From Clostridia bacterium (lineage in GTDB: Bacteria > UBA6262 > WVXT01 > JAUXBS01), in contig JAUXDE010000023.1 of the NCBI GenBank assembly GCA_030618495.1, positions 1 through 18,229 of the forward strand: DNA of 18,229 nt, in the 5' to 3' direction. The notes beneath the pieces are model-generated. The model saw only the letters and a list, made by a program, of their open reading frames with translations, was not told the origin of the DNA and did not search any database. A program made the position numbers and the translations under genes. The first letter of the stretch is position 1, and each line of letters begins with the position of its first letter. Below, piece after piece: positions 1,658 to 17,372 of this stretch.

Positions 1658-3844
1658 CTATATAATAAATAGCATTTCCCTGTATTTCGGCAGGTCCCAC
1701 ATGTCATCAGGCAAGACACTTTCAAGTTTGTCGGAATGTGTGCGGATATGTTCCATGAGTGGTTTTAATCTATCAAAATACGCATTTGCCCTCTTTCCTA
1801 TGTCCACCTCTTCAAGTTCGTTCAACAACTTTTCCATCTCCTGGGTATTTCTTCTCACGTAATAAATCATATCTGTTATATCAGAAAGGTGCCTCTTCTG
1901 GTTTTCAAGGCTGGTGATGTTAAGCTCAACTCCGGATTCGGACATCTCGAGCAACGCCTTCAGGTTCTGCGCCAGCACACCCTGGTACTTGAGGCCTGAA
2001 GGAACTATGTTTGAATCAACCATTTCTTTTAATGTCTGGGCTTCAATATTGACCAGCTTGACGTACATATCAAGCCAGACATTATACCTTGCCACGAGTT
2101 CCTCCCTGGTAAACACCTTGTATCTCTCAAAAAGCGATACATGGTCTTCCCTGATAAATGACTTGAGAGCCAAAGGCGTTGAGGGCTCGTTCTCCAATCC
2201 GCGCTTTTCAGATTCTTTCTTCCAGTCTTCGGAATAGTTGTTTCCTTCAAACCTTATGTCCCTGCTTTCCCCCGTAAATTCCGCAATAACCTCAAAAACA
2301 GCATCATTGAAGTTCTTCTTCCTTGCTTCTTCCTCAATCCTGCTTGAAATATAATCCAACGACTCGGCTATAATGGTGTTCAACACCATAATCGGAGTGG
2401 ACACATTCTGTGACGAGCCACCGGCCCGGAACTCAAACTTTTTCCCCGTAAATGCGAATGGCGATGTCCTGTTCCTGTCCGTCATGTCCCTGTTAAATGT
2501 CGGGAGCCGCGCCACCCCGAGATCAATGATGTCCTTCTTTGAAATCTCAACTTTTTTCTTTTTTTCAACGGTATCGAGTATTTCCGTAAGCTGGGAACCC
2601 AGGAAAACCGACATGATGGCAGGGGGGGCTTCGTTAGCGCCAAGCCGGTATTCATTACCGGCAGAAGCAACACTTGCCCTCAGTAGCCCCTGGTGCCTGT
2701 AAATTGCTCTCAGCACAGCCGCTATAATGGCAAGGAACTGGAGATTGTCCATTGGTGTTTTTCCGGGACTTAGAAGATTATTGTTATTGCTATCCTCAAT
2801 TGACCAGTTGATATGCTTCCCGCTGCCGTTTATTCCCGCAAAGGGTTTTTCATGCAGGATACATACAAGGCCGTGCCTCAAGGCGATTTTCTTCATTATA
2901 TCCATGAGCAGCTGGTTATGGTCCGCGGCAATGTTGGATTCCTCGTATATCGGGGCAAATTCAAACTGGTTGGGGGCAACCTCGTTATGCCGGGTCTTTA
3001 TGGGTATACCCAGTTTATACGCTTCTTCGGTAACGTCGCTCATGTAGTTCAGCACCCTGTCCTTGATTGAACCGAAGTACTGGTCTTCCATCTGCTGCCC
3101 CTTAGGGGAAGGGGCGCCGACAAGGGTGCGCCCGCACAACAGCAGGTCCTGGCGCATCAGGAAATACTTTTCATCAATAAGAAAATATTCCTGTTCAGCC
3201 CCGCATGAGGACTTTACCCTCTTAACATCCTTTTTCCCAAAAAGCCCCAAAAACCTTACCGCGGCCTTGCTCAACGCCTCCTCCGAACGAAGCAACGGCA
3301 GTTTCTTGTCAAGAGCCTCCCCGTTGTAGGATACGAATATGGAAGGGATGCAAAGGGTCTTCCCGAGTTCACATTCAATTATAAATGCCGGGCTTGAAGG
3401 ATCCCACGCGGTGTATCCCCTTGCTTCAAAAGTGGTTCTTATACCTCCGCTTGGGAAACTGCTTGCATCGGGCTCCCCGAGTATCAGGTTTGACCCGGAG
3501 AACTTTTCAACCACCCCGCCGGGCGTCAAAGATATGAACCCGTCATGTTTTTCGGCAGTCAGCCCTGTCATTGGCTGGAACCAGTGTGTATAATAAACCG
3601 CTCCCTTTGATATTGCCCACTTCTTTATCCCTTCGGCTATTTCATCAGCATGAAATGCGCTCAGCTGTTTACCCTCATCAATCCATTGCTTAAAGGCTGT
3701 AAAGGGCTTGACTTTGATATATTTTTTCATCGTCCGTATATCAAAGGTATTAATGCCAAAAACAGCTTTCAAAGACTTTGGCTTATGGACCTTTTCAAAC
3801 CTGACCCTTTTAATTGAAGTAAGGATATCCTGTCTTATGCTCAT
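1658..3844 (-). CDS. glnN: Glutamine synthetase type III
   Basis: GSIII makes glutamine from glutamate, ammonia and ATP as a large dodecamer, and is distinct from GlnA. The 728-residue length is normal for the family (about 700). Visible are the type III N-terminal domain (KSLKAVFGINTFDIRTMKKYI; HWFQPMTG with the following AEKHDGFI), the catalytic GINGSGKHINWSIE, the type III signature LGANEAPPAIMSVFLG, and the NRTSPFAFTGKKFEFRAGGSSQN segment. The C-terminal helical part (about 590-728) is also typical. The start is the ATG overlapping the nadE1 stop as ATGA, so the two are translationally coupled. It is the last gene of its set. Downstream is only a weak terminator and a repeat-like stretch. 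Having GSI and GSIII together suggests use under different nitrogen supply. Confidence 0.97.
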   Translation of the reverse strand: MSIRQDILTSIKRVRFEKVHKPKSLKAVFGINTFDIRTMKKYIKVKPFTAFKQWIDEGKQLSAFHADEIAEGIKKWAISKGAVYYTHWFQPMTGLTAEKHDGFISLTPGGVVEKFSGSNLILGEPDASSFPSGGIRTTFEARGYTAWDPSSPAFIIECELGKTLCIPSIFVSYNGEALDKKLPLLRSEEALSKAAVRFLGLFGKKDVKRVKSSCGAEQEYFLIDEKYFLMRQDLLLCGRTLVGAPSPKGQQMEDQYFGSIKDRVLNYMSDVTEEAYKLGIPIKTRHNEVAPNQFEFAPIYEESNIAADHNQLLMDIMKKIALRHGLVCILHEKPFAGINGSGKHINWSIEDSNNNNLLSPGKTPMDNLQFLAIIAAVLRAIYRHQGLLRASVASAGNEYRLGANEAPPAIMSVFLGSQLTEILDTVEKKKKVEISKKDIIDLGVARLPTFNRDMTDRNRTSPFAFTGKKFEFRAGGSSQNVSTPIMVLNTIIAESLDYISSRIEEEARKKNFNDAVFEVIAEFTGESRDIRFEGNNYSEDWKKESEKRGLENEPSTPLALKSFIREDHVSLFERYKVFTREELVARYNVWLDMYVKLVNIEAQTLKEMVDSNIVPSGLKYQGVLAQNLKALLEMSESGVELNITSLENQKRHLSDITDMIYYVRRNTQEMEKLLNELEEVDIGKRANAYFDRLKPLMEHIRTHSDKLESVLPDDMWDLPKYREMLFII

Positions 3845-4569
3845 TTCTTTCCTTTCCTGTAAATCACAGCCGGTTCCCTTTTATGCCTGGATGCCTTCAT
3901 CATCTTCATAATTTTTTCATAATTCTGGCTTGAAACCTCGGACCTTTTTCCCTTTTCAATTGATACGACTACCCTTTCTATTTCCCCGTAGGTAACACCC
4001 ATTTCCTCTTCATCAGTCTGGCCTTTCCACAACCCCGCGGAAGGGACTCTTTTAACTATTTTTTCCGGCACACCCAGTTCACGGGCAAGTTTGGTTACCT
4101 CGGATTTAAGCAAATCACCTAAGGGCTGAATGTCCACGCCGCCATCGCCGTACTTGGTAAAATAACCCACTAACATTTCGCATTTGTTGCCCGTGCCTAC
4201 CACGAGGTAATTAAGCATATTCGCGTAGTAATACAGCGTTGTCATCCGGAGCCTTGGTTTCAGGTTAGCCATGGCGATTTTATTGCTTTCATGAAGGACT
4301 TCCAGAAAGTGCTCATTAACCCGGCTCAACTCAATCCTGTGCGTTTTGAGGGCAAATTTTTCTGCCGCAAGAAGCGCATCTTTTTCATCCAGGGCAAGAC
4401 TGTCACACATTATAATCAGTCCAAGCACATTATCACCGCAAGCCCTCTTTGCAAGGCCAGCCACGACCGCGGAATCTAGCCCGCCGCTCAAGCCGAATAC
4501 TATTCCATCCTTATTTGATTCCTCAACCTGCCTCTTAATCCAATTTGATATTTTGTCGGATAGTTTCAT
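3841..4569 (-). CDS. nadE: NAD synthetase-like protein, copy 1 (divergent)
   Basis: This 242-residue PP-loop ATPase is a paralog of the NadE at 13768-14478. It keeps SGGLDS (28-33), NLKPRLRMTTLYY (102-114), YFTKYGDGGVDIQPLGD (136-152), PSAGLWKGQTDEEEMG (176-191) and the terminal basic HKREP, so the fold and most of the active site are intact. Two spots differ: GTGNKCE (125-131) has Cys where the family and copy 2 have Ser, and the copy 2 segment MPCHSS is replaced by IMCDSL (53-58). No glutaminase domain is attached. It starts with AAGGGG near the ATG, 15 bases after the CsgG-domain gene, and its stop overlaps the glnN start by four bases (ATGA). It may be a second NAD synthetase or a related amidating enzyme with altered substrate. 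Confidence 0.82.
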   Translation of the reverse strand: MKLSDKISNWIKRQVEESNKDGIVFGLSGGLDSAVVAGLAKRACGDNVLGLIIMCDSLALDEKDALLAAEKFALKTHRIELSRVNEHFLEVLHESNKIAMANLKPRLRMTTLYYYANMLNYLVVGTGNKCEMLVGYFTKYGDGGVDIQPLGDLLKSEVTKLARELGVPEKIVKRVPSAGLWKGQTDEEEMGVTYGEIERVVVSIEKGKRSEVSSQNYEKIMKMMKASRHKREPAVIYRKGKK

Positions 4570-7843: not shown

Positions 7844-8326
7844 TTATGTCGCTCTCAATCTTACATGCCTTATAACATCCCCTGATTTAATGAATGAGCC
7901 TCTAGTGCAACCCGTTACATTGCAGAAAGTTATTGCATTATTATAATCAAGTGTTTTTGTCAATCCCAGCACCACCATATCCCCATCGGAACTGCAATCG
8001 CAATTAACTAATTTCTTAAAAATGGTATTACAATGCGGACAGTAAAGCTCATCCTTAACGCCTTCTTCCAGAATCCCCGATAGTATTGTTTTACTGAAAT
8101 CACCTTCTATTGCCGAAATAACGAATTCCCCATCCATCCCCGGCCGCTTGTATTTTATCCTGATACCCGGGTACCCGTTAATGTTATTTTGATTGTCCAT
8201 CAAACTGCAACCATTCGGGCAGTATACATTCATAACAACATACCTAACCTTGTTTTCTGTCTTTTTCCTTTTCCTACGCCTGCTTAAAGGTATTATCCAC
8301 CTGCTGTCTTTACCAAACCTGTTCAT
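7844..8326 (-). CDS. Cys-rich protein of unknown function
   Basis: I do not recognise this 160-residue protein. It begins with a basic stretch (SRRRKRKK, 15-22) and has eight cysteines in pairs: C36/C40 (CPNGC), C96/C99 (CPHC), C109/C111 (CDC) and C135/C140. This suggests one or two zinc-ribbon folds or another metal site. No signal peptide or membrane segment is visible, so it is probably cytoplasmic. The start has a strong AAAGGAGGA site eight bases after a leader terminator; Met32 is a weaker alternative that would remove the basic tail. It stands between the glnA operon and the DUF1573 operon, with no promoter that I can define. It could bind RNA, DNA or a partner protein, but nothing decides this. 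Confidence 0.7.
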   Translation of the reverse strand: MNRFGKDSRWIIPLSRRRKRKKTENKVRYVVMNVYCPNGCSLMDNQNNINGYPGIRIKYKRPGMDGEFVISAIEGDFSKTILSGILEEGVKDELYCPHCNTIFKKLVNCDCSSDGDMVVLGLTKTLDYNNAITFCNVTGCTRGSFIKSGDVIRHVRLRAT

Positions 8327-8351
8327 GTCGTCCTCCTTTTTCTTTTTAAAT

Positions 8352-8393
8352 AAAAAAAAGCCTTTTCGAACATTAGAACATGTTCAAAAAGAC
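8352..8393 (-). terminator. Strong intrinsic terminator between the glnA operon and the Cys-rich gene
   Basis: The minus strand forms a 14-bp stem (GTCTTTTTGAACAT with ATGTTCGAAAAGGC, three G-T pairs), a GTTCTA loop, and eight T. It lies 129 bases past the amidotransferase stop, and its T run ends 25 bases before the next ATG. It may simply end the operon or be a third leader attenuator. No clear alternative hairpin was seen; only a 3-bp GAC/GTC hairpin touches its base. Confidence 0.88.
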
Positions 8394-8451
8394 TTACATT
8401 GTCATCGCTTATCTGTATTTTTGTTTCCCGAAGTTAAACCCTGAACTCATT

Positions 8452-8521: not shown

Positions 8522-9229
8522 TCAAGAACTCTTCATAATCTTAATAAAATTGGAACAGATTATATTTAACTGTTGTTTATACCTATCTTCTATTTTAAAA
8601 TACCTGTTAAGAATATCCTTTTTTGTAACTGCCCAGTCTTTTTTGTTTATCTCTGTACCGTATTCATCCAACCATTTTATAATTTCCTGATTAGTTACTT
8701 CCGGGTGAAACTGGAAACCGTAAGCATTCTTCCCGACTTTAAATGCCTGGTTGATACAATGATCCGATGTAGCTAATAAAATACCATTCTTCGGTATTTC
8801 AAAAGTGTCTCCATGCCATTGAAACACATCCAACCATTCACTCAAACCATTGAAAATGCTTTCTGACATACCCTCACTGGTCAAATTAACCTTATACCAT
8901 CCAATCTCTTTTACGGGAGCTTTCTTTACCTTTGCCCCGCATGCCTTTGCCAGAAGCTGAGCTCCGAGGCAAATTCCCAGGATAGGCACTTCATCCCTCA
9001 GCGCTTTCTTCAGGAACATGTCCTCATCCTTGAGAAAAAGATACTTTTCCTCTTCATACACATTCATTGGGCCGCCAAGTACGACAACCGCATCAACGTT
9101 ACGGTTGTCATCCGGTAATTTTTCTCCTCTAGAAAGTTCTATAATCCTGAATTCCTTTCCCAGCTTCCTGAAACAATCAGTAAAATTACCCGGCCCCTCT
9201 ATGATAATATTTTTAATAATATATATCAT
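8522..9229 (-). CDS. Class I glutamine amidotransferase (GMP synthase-like, stand-alone)
   Basis: The 235-residue protein is a triad-type glutaminase: nucleophile C87 in GICLGAQLLAKA, and H175 and E177 in GFQFHPEV. The LGGPMNVYEEE segment near 51-61 is typical of the stand-alone 'GMP synthase-like' group. It releases ammonia from glutamine, but no synthetase domain is attached. The C-terminal about 50 residues form a charged helical tail (YGTEINKKDW onward). It starts 15 bases after the glnA stop, with only a weak ribosome binding site, so it is read from the glnA message. Possible roles are a glutaminase for an unknown acceptor, gamma-glutamyl hydrolase-like activity, or an ammonia donor in trans to the NadE proteins; none can be chosen from sequence. 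Confidence 0.85.
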   Translation of the reverse strand: MIYIIKNIIIEGPGNFTDCFRKLGKEFRIIELSRGEKLPDDNRNVDAVVVLGGPMNVYEEEKYLFLKDEDMFLKKALRDEVPILGICLGAQLLAKACGAKVKKAPVKEIGWYKVNLTSEGMSESIFNGLSEWLDVFQWHGDTFEIPKNGILLATSDHCINQAFKVGKNAYGFQFHPEVTNQEIIKWLDEYGTEINKKDWAVTKKDILNRYFKIEDRYKQQLNIICSNFIKIMKSS

Positions 9230-13114: not shown

Positions 13115-13151
13115 AAAAAAAGCGCTCTACTTACATTAGTAAATAGAACGC
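13115..13151 (-). terminator. Leader terminator (attenuator) before the porin gene
   Basis: The minus strand forms a 13-bp stem (GCGTTCTATTTAC with GTAAGTAGAGCGC, two G-T pairs) with the loop TAAT, then seven T. The T run ends 23 bases before the porin ATG, and AAAGGAGAGG lies between. It can end the nadE2-sigma transcript or act as a regulated stop ahead of the five-gene nitrogen operon. Confidence 0.9.
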
Positions 13152-13190
13152 CTTCGCTCTCTTTATTAGCCCTGTTCGATGAGCTATAAA
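13145..13190 (-). promoter_or_regulatory. Two-hairpin antitermination leader before the porin-amt-glnA operon
   Basis: On the minus strand the first hairpin (13190-13162) pairs TTTATAGCTC with GGGCTAATAAA (ten pairs, one bulged A) around the loop ATCGAACA, which begins with the A-N-N-G-A-A pattern also seen in the nadE2 leader. The second hairpin (13160-13145) pairs AGAGCG with CGTTCT around AAGG. Its 3' arm is part of the 5' arm of the terminator at 13122-13151, so they exclude each other. This is the usual order for ANTAR or similar antitermination leaders, but the second loop does not show the A1/G4 hexaloop. No clear promoter was found directly upstream, so transcripts may come through from nadE2-sigma. 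Confidence 0.5.
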
Positions 13191-13234: not shown

Positions 13235-13771
13235 TTACCCCCCGGGAAATATTTTATTCTCCCACTTCCTGCGTATGTTGTCCTGTAACTTAAAAACTCT
13301 CTTTCCCGATATATGCAGTATCCCCCCGGCTTCCCTCATGGTATAACCCTGCATCCTCAGCCTGAACACATCCTTTTCTCTAATGGTTAATCCGTTATTA
13401 TTGATGCTTTCGTAAATCATTCTCCAGTTAAGGACATCATAAAGCGGCCTTGCCGTATCTTCTATTACGTCCTTAAGTGTCATATCTTCGCTTTCGGTTT
13501 CGTTTACGGGTTCATCCAGGCTTGTAACCCTCACCTTATTATCGGCTACCCTTAAATAATTTCTAACATGAAACCAACAGCCCTGAAGTATGTAACTGTC
13601 AGTATTTCCTTCTATTCTCCCTGATTGATATTGTTCCCATAAATAAAGGCGCATTTCCTGGGCAAGGTCATCCTCATCTGAATATTCGCGGATATAGCTG
13701 AACTTCCTGGCTATGCCCTTTATTTTCAAATCGTACCTATTAATAACTTCCCCGAAAGTCATCTTCTTCAT
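13235..13771 (-). CDS. Sigma-70-family-like protein (region 2 and region 4)
   Basis: The 178-residue protein has the layout of a small sigma factor. A region 2-like helical part (about 15-80) has DEDDLAQEMRLYLWEQ, resembling the core-binding 2.1/2.2 segment. An acidic linker follows (about 84-110). A region 4-like helix-turn-helix (about 125-172) has LTIREKDVFRLRMQGYTMREAGGILHISGKRVF. I do not recognise a named group; it resembles ECF-type or phage-type sigma factors more than housekeeping ones. Its start overlaps the nadE2 stop by four bases (ATGA), with AAAGGG immediately upstream; Met4 is an alternative start with better spacing. It precedes the porin-amt-glnA leader by about 45 bases, so it may direct or tune transcription of nitrogen genes (inference). 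Without alignment, a non-sigma helix-turn-helix regulator remains possible. Confidence 0.7.
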   Translation of the reverse strand: MKKMTFGEVINRYDLKIKGIARKFSYIREYSDEDDLAQEMRLYLWEQYQSGRIEGNTDSYILQGCWFHVRNYLRVADNKVRVTSLDEPVNETESEDMTLKDVIEDTARPLYDVLNWRMIYESINNNGLTIREKDVFRLRMQGYTMREAGGILHISGKRVFKLQDNIRRKWENKIFPGG

Positions 13772-14478
13772 CCCTTTCTAAATACTGGCGAAGGACACCT
13801 TTTATGTTCCGTACGTTTCATTATTTTCTTTACTTTCCTTACTTTACCCTTATTGGCTTTGACACCCCGGTTTAACATTAACAGGGCATCATCGATTTCC
13901 CTGTAAGACATCTTCATTTCGCCCTCATCGGTCTGCCCTTCCCATAAACCGGCAGAAGGAGGTTTATTTATAATGCTTCTGGGTATTCCCACCTTTTTTG
14001 CCAACCTTTGTACATCTCTCTTCAACATGTCTCCCAGCGGAGAGATATCCACAGCACCATCCCCGTGCTTGGTGAAATACCCGGTCATCACCTCGCTTTT
14101 GTTGCCTGTACCGCAAACAAGATAATTCATGGAATTTGCGAAGTAGTACAGGGTAGTCATCCTTAACCTCGGCTTAATATTGGACAGGTAAACCTTATCA
14201 TTTATGGGATAATTCTCGACCAACTTATCATAGGCATCAGTTAAATCTATTCTCAACACCTTAATATTGAATTTAGCCGATAAAATCAGTGCATCGACAA
14301 TATCATCATTACTCGAATGACATGGCATCATCAATCCCAGCAGATTATCACCGACTGCCATTTTACACAATACTGCTGTGAGTGATGAGTCTATCCCCCC
14401 GCTTAACCCAATTACAATTCCTTTTACTTTTGCCTTACTGACATATTCCTTAATCCATTCAGCTATCTTTATTTCCAT
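13768..14478 (-). CDS. nadE: NAD synthetase, short ammonia-type, copy 2
   Basis: NadE amidates nicotinic acid adenine dinucleotide to NAD using ATP and ammonia. The 236-residue protein is a single PP-loop ATPase domain: SGGIDSS (26-32) binds ATP phosphate, GTGNKSE (123-129) and YFTKHGDGAVDISPLGD (134-150) form the deamido-NAD and metal site, and PSAGLWEGQTDEGEM (174-188) closes it. There is no N-terminal nitrilase-type glutaminase domain, so ammonia must come free or from a partner. The MPCHSS segment (51-56) is typical of this short subfamily. The start has a strong GGAGGAA site directly after the leader terminator, so expression is probably controlled by antitermination. The gene overlaps the sigma-like gene by four bases (ATGA). 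A second, more divergent NadE is at 3841-4569. Confidence 0.9.
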   Translation of the reverse strand: MEIKIAEWIKEYVSKAKVKGIVIGLSGGIDSSLTAVLCKMAVGDNLLGLMMPCHSSNDDIVDALILSAKFNIKVLRIDLTDAYDKLVENYPINDKVYLSNIKPRLRMTTLYYFANSMNYLVCGTGNKSEVMTGYFTKHGDGAVDISPLGDMLKRDVQRLAKKVGIPRSIINKPPSAGLWEGQTDEGEMKMSYREIDDALLMLNRGVKANKGKVRKVKKIMKRTEHKRCPSPVFRKG

Positions 14479-14492
14479 AATGTTTCCTCCAT

Positions 14493-14538
14493 AAAAAAAA
14501 TCCTCTATCTCCCAGCTTCACTGCCGGATTATAGAGGA
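14493..14538 (-). terminator. Leader terminator (attenuator) before nadE2
   Basis: The minus strand pairs TCCTCTAT (14538-14531) with ATAGAGGA (14508-14501), enclosing the CCGGC/GCTGG hairpin, and is followed by eight T (14500-14493). The T run ends only 14 bases before the nadE2 ATG, and GGAGGAA lies between. A strong terminator this close to a start codon makes sense as a regulated attenuator. Confidence 0.85.
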
Positions 14539-14551
14539 CTTCTATGCCCTC
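14512..14551 (-). promoter_or_regulatory. Candidate ANTAR RNA target: two hairpins with A1/G4 hexaloops
   Basis: On the minus strand the first hairpin (14551-14534) is GAGGGC, loop ATAGAA, GTCCTC: six pairs including one G-T. A six-base linker (TATAAT) follows. The second hairpin (14527-14512) is CCGGC, loop AGTGAA, GCTGG: five pairs including one G-T. Known ANTAR targets are two such hairpins with six-base loops carrying A at position 1 and G at position 4, and both loops here fit. The 3' arm of the first hairpin is also the 5' arm of the terminator at 14501-14538, so they cannot form together. The site lies between the GAF-GAF-ANTAR gene and nadE2. The structure was folded by eye and binding is inferred. 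Confidence 0.7.
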
Positions 14552-14581: not shown

Positions 14582-14619
14582 AAAAAAGCCTTCCTTTTCC
14601 TTCAGCGGAATCGGAAGAC
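14582..14619 (-). terminator. Intrinsic terminator after the ANTAR gene / first leader hairpin
   Basis: The minus strand forms a 7-bp stem (GTCTTCC with GGAAGGC, one G-T pair), a GA/AA internal loop, a 4-bp stem TTCC/GGAA, and a six-base loop GCTGAA, followed by six T. It can end the gltBD-ANTAR transcript. If the promoter at 14639-14667 is used, the same hairpin also lies at the start of the nadE2 leader and could be a first control point. Confidence 0.75.
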
Positions 14620-14638
14620 ATCATTGCCTTTCAATATC

Positions 14639-14667
14639 ATTTTACATCAATTCTAATGGTTTGTCAA
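14639..14667 (-). promoter_or_regulatory. Sigma-70 promoter for the nadE2 leader
   Basis: The minus strand has TTGACA (14667-14662), a 17-base spacer, and TAAAAT (14644-14639). Eleven of twelve bases match the consensus. It lies 25 bases past the ANTAR stop codon. Transcription would start near 14632 and give a leader of about 150 bases before nadE2. Confidence 0.75.
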
Positions 14668-14691: not shown

Positions 14692-15921
14692 CTATATTTC
14701 TGAAGCCAGTATTACTGCCTGCGCAATTTCCTTCATTGATTTGCAGGTATCCATGCTCTTCTTCCTTATAATCCGGTAGGCTTCATCCTCCGACACGCTG
14801 CGGTTCTTCATAATCACACCTTTTGCTTTTTCAATGATTTTCCTCATCTCCAGCGCTTCTTTTGTTTTCATCATCTCATCCATCAACCTGCTGCTTTCAA
14901 TGGCAGCGGCTGACTGGTTCGCTACCGTCAGTAAAATCCTTGTTTCCTCACGGCTGAAACTGTACTTATGTGAAACATAAACATTTATAACACCAATAAC
15001 CTTACCCTTTACCATCATTGGCACGGCAAGCATGGAAACTACTCCTATCTTTCTTGCCATTTCAGGATATGCGAATCTTGTATCTTTTGTCACGTCAGAA
15101 ACTGTTATGGCCTTCTTCTCTTTAACCACCTGCCCGCTTATACTCTGCCCAATTTTTATATTGGGTTTCTTCTTATACTCCTCGCTCAGGCTCTGGGTTG
15201 CCTTTATTACCAGCTCCTTCTTCTGCTCATCCACCAGCATAAGTGAACATATTTTGGAATCCATCATCTCTGCGGTTACCGTAACTATGAGACTAAGAAT
15301 ACCATCCAGATACCGGTCGGATACAACCGTTTCACTTACTCTTGAAAGCGTTTCCACCTGTTTTGCTTTCCTCTTCAATTCATCATACAACTTGGTATTC
15401 TCAATTACACTTCCAAGCTGCCCTGTAATGGCAGCAAGAAAGGATACCAGGGATTTACTGTACTCATAGGATTTTCTATGCTGAACATTAACAACGCCTA
15501 TAACCTTATCTTTAACAATAATGGGAATTGAAAGGAATGACTCATACCTGTCCTCCGGCATACTGTTAAACAACCTGAACCTTTTATCCCTGTATGCGTT
15601 TATTGAGATATTTACAGGCTTTTTTTCATTAGCAACCCATCCGGTAATTCCTTCCCCCAGTTTAAGCTTTACTTTACCAAGGAGTTTGGGATGGGGGTTC
15701 TTGGTTGCCCTTAGAATTAATTCATCACGAACATCATCAATAAGATAAACAAAACACGAGTTGCCTCCGGTGATACCCACTATAATCTCAACTATGTCCT
15801 TCAATATTTTTTCCAAACCCGAACCACTGCTGATAGTTTCGATTACCTGGTACAGTATTTCTATTTTCTGGTTTAACTCTTTTTTGGTTTCGGTTTTTGA
15901 AATCATTTTCTCTTTATCCAT
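14692..15921 (-). CDS. GAF-GAF-ANTAR transcription antitermination regulator
   Basis: This is a sensor protein with an RNA-binding ANTAR output, a family that binds paired hairpins in nascent RNA and prevents termination. Two GAF domains occupy about residues 20-175 and 190-342; each has a LGEGITGWV/IGQSISGQVV-type segment and the closing VIGVVNV/VIGVINV strand. A short helical linker leads to the ANTAR domain, about 352-409, with the diagnostic R-K-I-I-E-K-A-K-G-V-I-M (AKG at 366-368), E-D-E-A-Y at 378-382, and a terminal helix. No kinase or DNA-binding domain is present, so the signal is probably a small ligand or a partner acting on the GAF domains. The protein has 409 residues. The ribosome binding site is weak (GGGA), and Met6, with AAAGAG upstream, is an alternative start. 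It follows gltD by 26 bases. It precedes a leader carrying hairpins that look like ANTAR targets, so it is the likely regulator of nadE2 and perhaps of the amt-glnA operon (inference). Confidence 0.92.
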   Translation of the reverse strand: MDKEKMISKTETKKELNQKIEILYQVIETISSGSGLEKILKDIVEIIVGITGGNSCFVYLIDDVRDELILRATKNPHPKLLGKVKLKLGEGITGWVANEKKPVNISINAYRDKRFRLFNSMPEDRYESFLSIPIIVKDKVIGVVNVQHRKSYEYSKSLVSFLAAITGQLGSVIENTKLYDELKRKAKQVETLSRVSETVVSDRYLDGILSLIVTVTAEMMDSKICSLMLVDEQKKELVIKATQSLSEEYKKKPNIKIGQSISGQVVKEKKAITVSDVTKDTRFAYPEMARKIGVVSMLAVPMMVKGKVIGVINVYVSHKYSFSREETRILLTVANQSAAAIESSRLMDEMMKTKEALEMRKIIEKAKGVIMKNRSVSEDEAYRIIRKKSMDTCKSMKEIAQAVILASEI

Positions 15922-15941
15922 TTTATTCCCATTATCGATTC

Positions 15942-15950
15942 ATTATATCA
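15942..15950 (-). promoter_or_regulatory. Possible extended -10 promoter for the ANTAR gene
   Basis: The minus strand reads TGATATAAT, a perfect extended -10 (TG-n-TATAAT). It includes the gltD stop codon and sits about 20 bases before the ANTAR ATG. I see no good -35 at 17 bases. It could give separate low-level expression of the regulator, but it may be chance in AT-rich sequence. Confidence 0.3.
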
Positions 15951-17372
15951 TTTTTTACAAAGATATTCATGAATACTTTCAGCAGCTTCTTTGCCTTGTT
16001 TAATGGCCCTTACTGCAAGAGAAGCTCCTGCCGCCGCATCACCGGCAGTAAATACTCCTTTAACGCTTGTAGCACAACTACGATTACTCTGTATATTACC
16101 CTTTTTATCATACCTGACACCCATGTCCTTCAGGAGCTTCCCGTGTTCAACGTGAACAAATCCCATTGCAAGTATAACCAGTTCAACCTTTAAGGAAAAT
16201 TCACTGTCCGGGACTTCACATACCTTAAGTCCTTTTGACTCTTTTAATCTCTTCCATTCAATCCGGATAAAATCAACTTCATTTACTTCTTTGTTCCTAC
16301 CCCTGAACCTTCTGTTGGAAACAGACCATTCTCTTTTTACCCCCTCTTCATGAGAAGACGAAGTCCTCAGAATAAGCGGCCACTCAGGCCATTGGGGATT
16401 CCAGGACTCCTTCCATTCCTGAGGTTTGGGCATAATCTCAAAAAGATAAACCTTTTTCGCTCCCTGCCTGTTTGCCGTACCCACACAGTCGGAACCCGTG
16501 TCACCACCGCCAATAACCAGGACATTCTTATCTTTTGCGGTAATTATATTCTTTTTTACTCCCGAAACAGACTCATTTGACTTTTGAAGGTAATCCATGG
16601 CAAAACATATCCCCCCAAGCTCCCTTCCGGGCACTTTCATATCTCTTGGTTCTCCCGCCCCCACGGTAAGAAGTACCACATCAAAAGACCTCTTTAAGAA
16701 AGCTACGGATATATCCTCACCTATGTTGACTCCTGTCTCAAACTTTATTCCTGATTCAACCATTATTTTTATACGTCTGTCTATTATCCACTTCTCAAGT
16801 TTAAAATCAGGAATGCCGAAACGCAGTATCCCTCCAAGCCTTTCTGATTTTTCAAATACGGTCACTTCATATCCCTTTTGCCTTAAAACGATTGCTGTAG
16901 AAAGTCCCGCAGGACCGGACCCGACTATCGCCACTTTTCTGTTTAATAAAAACTCCGGTTTTTTAGGTTTTACCCATCCTTTTTCAAAACCGTGCTCTAT
17001 TACAGCAAGTTCCACCTGCCTTATTGTAACAGGACTGTCATTTATAGACAAGGTACAGGCTGATTCACACAGGGCAGGGCATATCCTCCCCGTTATCTCC
17101 GGCAGAGGATTTGTTTCTTCAAGCCTCCTCAAAGCATCCTCCCATTTGCCCCTGTATACAAGGTCATTCCATTCCGGGATGAAGTTACCAAGAGGACACC
17201 CTATACCATGACAGAAAGGCACTCCACAGTCCATGCACCTTGAAGCCTGTTCCCTTATCTTATCATCCGGAAGGCACTTCATTACATCCCTGTAATCCTT
17301 CAGGCGTTCTTTAACAGGCCTATGCCCGGCTTCTTTTCTGCTCTCCTCAATAAATCCCGTAGTTTTACCCAT
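15948..17372 (-). CDS. gltD: Glutamate synthase (GOGAT) small subunit, NADPH/FAD oxidoreductase
   Basis: GltD oxidises NAD(P)H and passes electrons through FAD and Fe-S clusters to GltB. The N-terminal region carries cysteines for two 4Fe-4S clusters (C46, C49, C54, C59, then C99, C103, C107). A first Rossmann dinucleotide site (GSGPAG, about 152-157) binds FAD and a second (GGGDTGSD, about 289-296) binds NAD(P)H. The end has the typical GVFTAGDAAAGASLAVRAI segment that closes the FAD site. The length of 474 residues is normal. I start at the ATG at 17370-17372, which overlaps the gltB stop as TGATG and has GAGG seven bases upstream. An adjacent in-frame TTG one codon earlier is less likely. 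The next gene, the ANTAR regulator, begins 26 bases downstream, which suggests a gltB-gltD-regulator operon. The family could in principle be another GltD-like partner, but the gltB fragment makes the assignment firm. Confidence 0.95.
   Translation of the reverse strand: MGKTTGFIEESRKEAGHRPVKERLKDYRDVMKCLPDDKIREQASRCMDCGVPFCHGIGCPLGNFIPEWNDLVYRGKWEDALRRLEETNPLPEITGRICPALCESACTLSINDSPVTIRQVELAVIEHGFEKGWVKPKKPEFLLNRKVAIVGSGPAGLSTAIVLRQKGYEVTVFEKSERLGGILRFGIPDFKLEKWIIDRRIKIMVESGIKFETGVNIGEDISVAFLKRSFDVVLLTVGAGEPRDMKVPGRELGGICFAMDYLQKSNESVSGVKKNIITAKDKNVLVIGGGDTGSDCVGTANRQGAKKVYLFEIMPKPQEWKESWNPQWPEWPLILRTSSSHEEGVKREWSVSNRRFRGRNKEVNEVDFIRIEWKRLKESKGLKVCEVPDSEFSLKVELVILAMGFVHVEHGKLLKDMGVRYDKKGNIQSNRSCATSVKGVFTAGDAAAGASLAVRAIKQGKEAAESIHEYLCKK

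Follow-up and report, generated by a model that had tools for sequence, protein, structure and literature searches.

Tandem hexaloop terminators with a nested partner hairpin between a GAF-GAF-ANTAR gene and an NAD synthetase gene

In eut leaders, the terminator uses up the second of two hairpins and leaves the first one free (PMC8934654), and in ANTAR-target RNA a linker of 2 to 25 nt lies between the hairpins (PMC8164766). Both the covariance model and the terminator screen that have been published presuppose that the terminator overlaps the second hairpin, P2 (PMC3369931). The EutV structure paper asks why there should be two hexaloops if one dimer contacts only one of them; in its proposal, the first serves to recruit the protein and the second to block termination. 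Here we describe a nadE leader with two hexaloop hairpins in a different relation to the terminator, found in the window, by which we mean the whole stretch of 18,229 nucleotides that was analysed.

The nadE leader and its surroundings

The minus strand of the window is a nitrogen-assimilation cluster made up of glutamate synthase parts, a GAF-GAF-ANTAR gene, nadE, a 178-aa frame, a porin-like frame, amtB, glnK and glnA, with the names of the glutamate synthase parts, amtB, glnK and glnA assigned from a reading of the translations. The ANTAR gene adjoining the leader is one of two in the source genome, the other being on contig C89. Its ANTAR domain aligns to EutV (6wsh/6ww6, E 6e-10) and to NasR (4akk), and the protein keeps the EutV RNA-contact residues R142, K143, K147, K149, E160, Y164, R168 and M172, among which R142, K149, E160 and Y164 contact G4; the stem-contact residues N173, R175 and R177 of EutV are D, C and S. 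Because the GAF part is similar to NifA-like proteins (Nlh1), a nitrogen signal such as 2-oxoglutarate is plausible for these domains, which would then report nitrogen status, and from the gene content a link to ammonia status, as the earlier note had suggested, may be envisaged.

Further down the window, a second short NAD synthetase (3841-4569, minus strand), 49% identical to the first, runs 4 bases into the beginning of the gene for a type III glutamine synthetase (1658-3844, minus strand). This pair is also found in a genome of the same genus, G001 (L074:16939-17667 and 14753-16942), and no hexaloop leader was seen there. A stand-alone class I glutamine amidotransferase (8522-9229, minus strand) adjoins glnA and might be an ammonia source for the short NAD synthetase; frames resembling such an amidotransferase come after nadE in the Omnitrophota loci L147 and L141. 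The 178-aa frame (13235-13771, minus strand) overlaps the end of nadE, is small and reads as sigma-factor-like, its only match being a weak one to a LuxR-type helix-turn-helix.

Between the stop of the ANTAR gene (14692) and the start of nadE (14478), the minus strand carries two tandem hexaloop-terminator units, element A (14630-14582) and then element B (14551-14493) (Table 1). Element B is the structure reported in the earlier note, which had overlooked element A upstream of it and the weaker element C. Its two loops, ATAGAA and AGTGAA, both with A1 and G4, can be read directly in the sequence, the ANTAR gene does end 141 bases upstream of the first hairpin and is recognised by Pfam as GAF/GAF/ANTAR, and the assignment of the controlled gene as an NAD synthetase is borne out by its Pfam match. 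The same note had claimed that the terminator arm is taken from the first hairpin; sequence and folding agree that the 5' terminator arm of element B is the 3' arm of its first hairpin and that the second hairpin stays intact within the terminator, and the same layout is found in related leaders. Unlike the loops of element B, the nested loop of element A (GCTGAA) lacks A1 and has G at that position. The linker between hairpin arms is 4 nt in element A and approximately 6 in element B, inside the 2 to 25 nt range. Element A lies directly behind a TTGACA-N17-TAAAAT promoter and its transcript would open with the first hairpin, and therefore no upstream partner hairpin fits. The idea that the first hairpin of the window is a classical P2 that has lost its P1 was accordingly ruled out for element A, since a P1 would not fit behind the promoter and since leaders of exactly this kind are enriched in nested G4 loops.

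Table 1. Features of the nadE leader, the adjoining genes and element C (R2, covariance model described in the text)
Feature	Position	Strand	Evidence
-35 box TTGACA	14662..14667	-	sequence, promoter scan
-10 box TAAAAT, spacer 17	14639..14644	-	sequence, promoter scan; expected transcription start ~14632
Element A, first hairpin AAGGC[AATGAT]GTCTT	14615..14630	-	R2 24.1 bits, E 1.4e-4 in window
Element A, nested second hairpin TTCC[GCTGAA]GGAA (G1, G4)	14597..14610	-	sequence, folding, R2
Element A, terminator GTCTTCC (14619-14613) / GGAAGGC (14594-14588), T6	14582..14619	-	folding
Element B, first hairpin GAGGGC[ATAGAA]GTCCTC	14534..14551	-	sequence, folding, R2 21.4 bits, E 6.4e-4
Element B, nested second hairpin CCGGC[AGTGAA]GCTGG, extended by T.G pair	14512..14527	-	sequence, folding, R2
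Element B, terminator TCCTCTAT (14538-14531) / ATAGAGGA (14508-14501), T8 (14500-14493)	14493..14538	-	sequence, folding
GAF-GAF-ANTAR regulator gene, 409 aa	14692..15921	-	Pfam GAF (2 stretches), ANTAR E 1.1e-19
nadE (controlled gene), NAD synthetase of ammonia-dependent type, short form, 236 aa	13768..14478	-	Pfam NAD_synthase E 8.8e-75
Element C, weaker candidate before porin-amtB-glnK-glnA	13115..13160	-	R2 16.5 bits, E 0.01 in window, absent from training
Element C, parts: AGAGC[GAAGGC]GTTCT; possible nested TTTACT[AATGTA]AGTAGA; terminator GCGTTCTA/TAGAGCGC, T7	13115..13160	-	R2

When the minus strand is folded, the terminator and the first hairpin are mutually exclusive in both elements. 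The terminator form of element B reaches -24.8 kcal/mol (z -4.8), with none of 200 shuffles as good. Compared with the two hairpins together, the terminator is favoured in element B by -19.2 over -16.9 kcal/mol and in element A, where both hairpins together are weak, by -16.4 over -7.1 kcal/mol; these energies are compatible with a switch in which the terminator is the default winner. Dinucleotide shuffling of the whole window (n=150) never produced a terminator with an overlapping A1/G4 and a nested R1/G4 hexaloop, of which the real window has two. The Rfam scan of the window gave no family at cut-off, and the four snoRNA, viral and lncRNA matches below it were rejected.

Recurrence of the nested layout and of nadE at ANTAR loci

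All claims that involve a covariance model rest on the leave-out model R2, which was made from 17 nested elements of other organisms and includes no window sequence; the earlier model, labelled R1, had included window sequences. As a MAFFT alignment of whole elements gapped the second stem, R2 was built from segments without linker bases, trimmed for the stems to align, and an alignment of R2 matches that was split by insertions (A5) was left out of pair counts. With this model, elements B and A are the two best sites in the whole 1.7 Mb genome, and elements A, B and C the three best in the window. In the minimum-energy fold of element C a tetraloop at the tip is preferred. The regulon of the source genome is known through model searches only; among its other R2 matches, those on contigs C87, C63, C29 and C86, which look like coding sequence and have no T-run, and that on C52, inside coding sequence, were rejected. 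Elsewhere in the window, a terminator before a 160-aa frame of unknown family (8326-8405, minus strand) is preceded by GAC[AATGTAA]GTC and is a weak candidate; the hairpin at 8376-8405 (R2 E 3.8) was not counted.

The stems of these elements vary in a compensatory manner, as the earlier note had proposed to examine. In 19 related elements, selected for these stems, 95.3% of cells are paired and 45 cells are changed on both sides (0/500 shuffles), and in related leaders of other genomes A1 and G4 are kept in both loops while the stem bases change. The loop-to-loop distance in nested units is 17-24 nt, with a mode of 19 (22 elements). The terminator helix, a feature that the model does not include, is seen in 29 of the 31 R2 matches outside the training set; the same matches, in which G4 of loop 2 was a read-out requirement, have A1 in loop 2 in 24 cases and a C-G closing pair in 29, and their other pairs vary. 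Five additional distinct R2 matches have no G4 hairpin at the second position.

A protein search provided 80 ANTAR loci from Omnitrophota, Nitrospira, Elusimicrobia and others, and later searches added 81 genomes of one Omnitrophota order, 67 of which encode a close ANTAR relative that is nearly always as long as GAF-GAF-ANTAR proteins are. With strict A1/G4 criteria, no site other than those of the window was recovered when the first relatives were scanned, and a looser scan for terminator-overlapping hairpins uncovered classical elements. A scan for R1/G4 hairpins that supply the 5' arm of a terminator yielded 81 leaders. An upstream partner is present in 28 of these, only two of which also have a nested R1/G4 hexaloop; the 53 leaders without an upstream partner divide into 22 with the nested hexaloop and 31 with neither, and among control terminators from these loci the nested hexaloop is found in 16 of 212 cases. 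In leaders that abut their promoter and leave no room for an upstream P1, it is present in 9 of 11 (Fisher 3e-8 against the controls), and the variant architecture proposed in the earlier note is in this sense a recurrent one. Of the two exceptions, L132 is a seven-base version and L100 probably has a miscalled promoter. All six promoter-abutting leaders of a second set, fetched independently after the idea arose, have the nested hexaloop. When sites were chosen by the first-hairpin pattern alone, it was present in 7 of 10 promoter-abutting sites with a terminator, a count that is not independent of the 9 of 11, as the sites are partly the same.

The nested layout is also tied to the presence of ANTAR genes. 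Within the Omnitrophota order, the first-hairpin pattern occurs in 52/67 genomes with an ANTAR gene and in 2/14 without (p 1.4e-5), the reversed pattern giving approximately 12 matches as compared with 72, and R2 matched 43 of the 81 genomes, 40/67 with the gene and 3/14 without. Dozens of further nested units are found in Omnitrophota ahead of ammonium transporter (amtB), glutamine synthetase III and nifH genes. The leader of a 522-aa frame in L118 (~4120-4187, plus strand) has three successive A1/G4 hexaloops, one upstream, one overlapping the terminator and one nested, and the ANTAR-gene leader in G051 (L063, upstream of 10755, minus strand) has hexaloops AAGGAT and AACGAT inside an outer helix TTACAGA/TCTGTAA with no terminator visible, and is possibly another layout.

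The earlier note regarded an NAD synthetase as an unfamiliar ANTAR target. In the literature searched, where papers with both terms were judged by titles and counts to be on other matters, nadE was indeed not found as a target; in genomes it is far from singular. An ANTAR gene is followed directly by nadE in approximately 20 of the 80 ANTAR loci, in Nitrospira, Omnitrophota, deltaproteobacterial and other genomes, and in 12 of these a promoter, hexaloop and terminator lie between the two genes. The six downstream proteins that were checked are all NAD synthases, mostly of the glutamine-dependent form. Comparison of the same nadE leader is possible in few genomes, and the close relative G001 is without this nadE copy; the nested layout recurs in one nadE leader whose upstream ANTAR gene shares 61% identity with that of the window, as GGAC[ACAGGC]GTCC and then CCC[AGTGAT]GGG. 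NAD synthesis, as a recurrent ANTAR-linked gene, is thereby added to nitrogen regulation in largely uncultured phyla.

The source genome also has classical leaders. The ANTAR gene on C89 (L071, ~13980-14060) has its own, with P1 and a terminator-overlapping P2, an arrangement for self-control; its upstream hairpin GGCAC[AATGTGA]GTGCT, with A1 and G4 in a loop of seven bases, is of a form common to G001 and G032. The classical layout here and in leaders of related genomes is an upstream hairpin, whose loop is often of seven bases and has A1 and G4, followed by GAAC[AAAGGC]GTTC, whose 3' arm enters the terminator. On contig C116 of the source genome (G000, L288, 6374-6408), the hairpin that overlaps the terminator, AAGGC[AATGAT]GTCTT, matches that of element A base for base. 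Its partner GAAAC[AAAGTA]GTTTT lies upstream at a loop-to-loop distance of 19, with the promoter further upstream, and no G4 hexaloop caps the terminator. The gene behind this leader encodes a pyruvate-phosphate dikinase ATP-binding domain, which suggests a carbon-metabolism target. On C89 and C116, as in elements A and B, a hexaloop overlaps the terminator, with the partner upstream in the former two and nested in the latter. The comparison of C116 with element A is as expected if a second hexaloop is needed at a set distance, on either side.

Proposed mechanism and alternative explanations

The observed anatomy, its recurrence, the pairing kept despite base changes and the association with ANTAR genes are best explained by two tandem ANTAR-controlled terminators ahead of nadE that are opened by the ANTAR protein holding P1 with the help of P2, a reading that we consider quite probable. 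A promoter behind the ANTAR gene would drive the leader with its two terminators. In each unit the first hexaloop hairpin (P1) would fold on leaving the polymerase, followed by P2. With the ANTAR protein absent or inactive, the downstream arm would invade P1 and take its 3' arm, forming the terminator with P2 as its tip, and transcription would stop. An active ANTAR dimer holding P1, helped by P2, would instead lock up the terminator arm and allow nadE to be transcribed. We infer this binding and the activating direction, and activation under nitrogen limitation would fit the gene set. More generally, it is reasonably likely that such leaders form a nested class, common in Omnitrophota and present in some other phyla, in which a leader starting at the promoter makes the termination-blocking hairpin first and the partner later, inside the terminator, with the recruitment order suggested for EutV reversed.

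Which protein acts on the leader can be considered separately. Control by the ANTAR protein of contig C89, or by both proteins, rather than by the neighbouring gene alone would be compatible with the presence of two ANTAR genes in the genome and with the classical leader of the C89 gene; we regard it as unlikely, as the window ANTAR gene adjoins the leader and nested elements are densest in the order whose ANTAR genes share the long GAF-GAF form. A second hexaloop may not be needed, because 31 of the 53 leaders without an upstream partner also have no nested one and five R2 matches have no G4 hairpin at the second position. EutV itself contacts one hexaloop and binds isolated P1 or P2 (PMC8934654). 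Only the first, terminator-overlapping hexaloop might then work, with the nested hairpin a mere terminator tip and its G4 incidental, yet the concentration of nested R1/G4 hexaloops where no upstream P1 fits, their near absence where P1 exists, and the recurrence of A1 and the C-G closing pair of loop 2 in sites outside the training set make this distinctly improbable.

Ordinary terminators that insulate nadE from the ANTAR gene, free of ANTAR control, would account for the strong terminators predicted for both elements by folding, and intergenic terminators are common; against this, the units follow a strong promoter and precede the gene, are two in tandem, have A1/G4 loops in both first hairpins in a combination that no shuffled window reproduced, and recur in association with ANTAR genes, which leaves such insulation a very slight chance. 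A metabolite riboswitch, as might be expected of a nadE leader if NAD were sensed, is hardly credible, given the Rfam result, a leader fully taken up by the two units, and the same units elsewhere before amtB, glutamine synthetase III and nifH.

Comparison with known ANTAR systems

Tandem arrangement and nitrogen genes have precedents. NasR, which controls nasF in Klebsiella oxytoca, is likewise a non-REC ANTAR protein whose leader combines two hexaloop hairpins and a terminator ahead of a nitrogen gene; its signal domain is NIT, in contrast to the GAF-GAF of the window protein. In the regulons predicted in Desulfotomaculum and Pelobacter, genes for glutamate/glutamine synthase, PII, ammonium transporter and nitrogenase are similarly preceded by several ANTAR RNAs in tandem (Ramesh 2012), and the gene list in the main text of that paper does not include NAD synthetase. 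Its terminator matches were kept only if the second hairpin overlapped the terminator, and the share of nested ones cannot be read from the text; a nested second hairpin could pass such overlap filters unremarked, and some published matches may for this reason belong here.

The closest likeness is to the EutV/eutP type of Enterococcus faecalis, with which the window shares the G4-contact residues of the ANTAR domain, two six-base loops with A1 and G4, a mutually exclusive intrinsic terminator and several units per regulon. It differs in the regulator, GAF-GAF-ANTAR as compared with the REC-ANTAR of EutV, and in the arrangement, as here the terminator uses up the first hairpin and encloses the second intact. 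Because the features of ANTAR-target RNA are present, the EutV arrangement is not, and published screens possibly include nested cases, we describe the nadE leader as a new form of known ANTAR antitermination. In dozens of natural leaders the order is reversed with respect to the EutV proposal, with the partner inside the terminator, and in a single genome an identical overlapping hairpin has its partner upstream on C116 and nested in element A. The question of why there are two hexaloops is therefore directly testable by a swap of partners.
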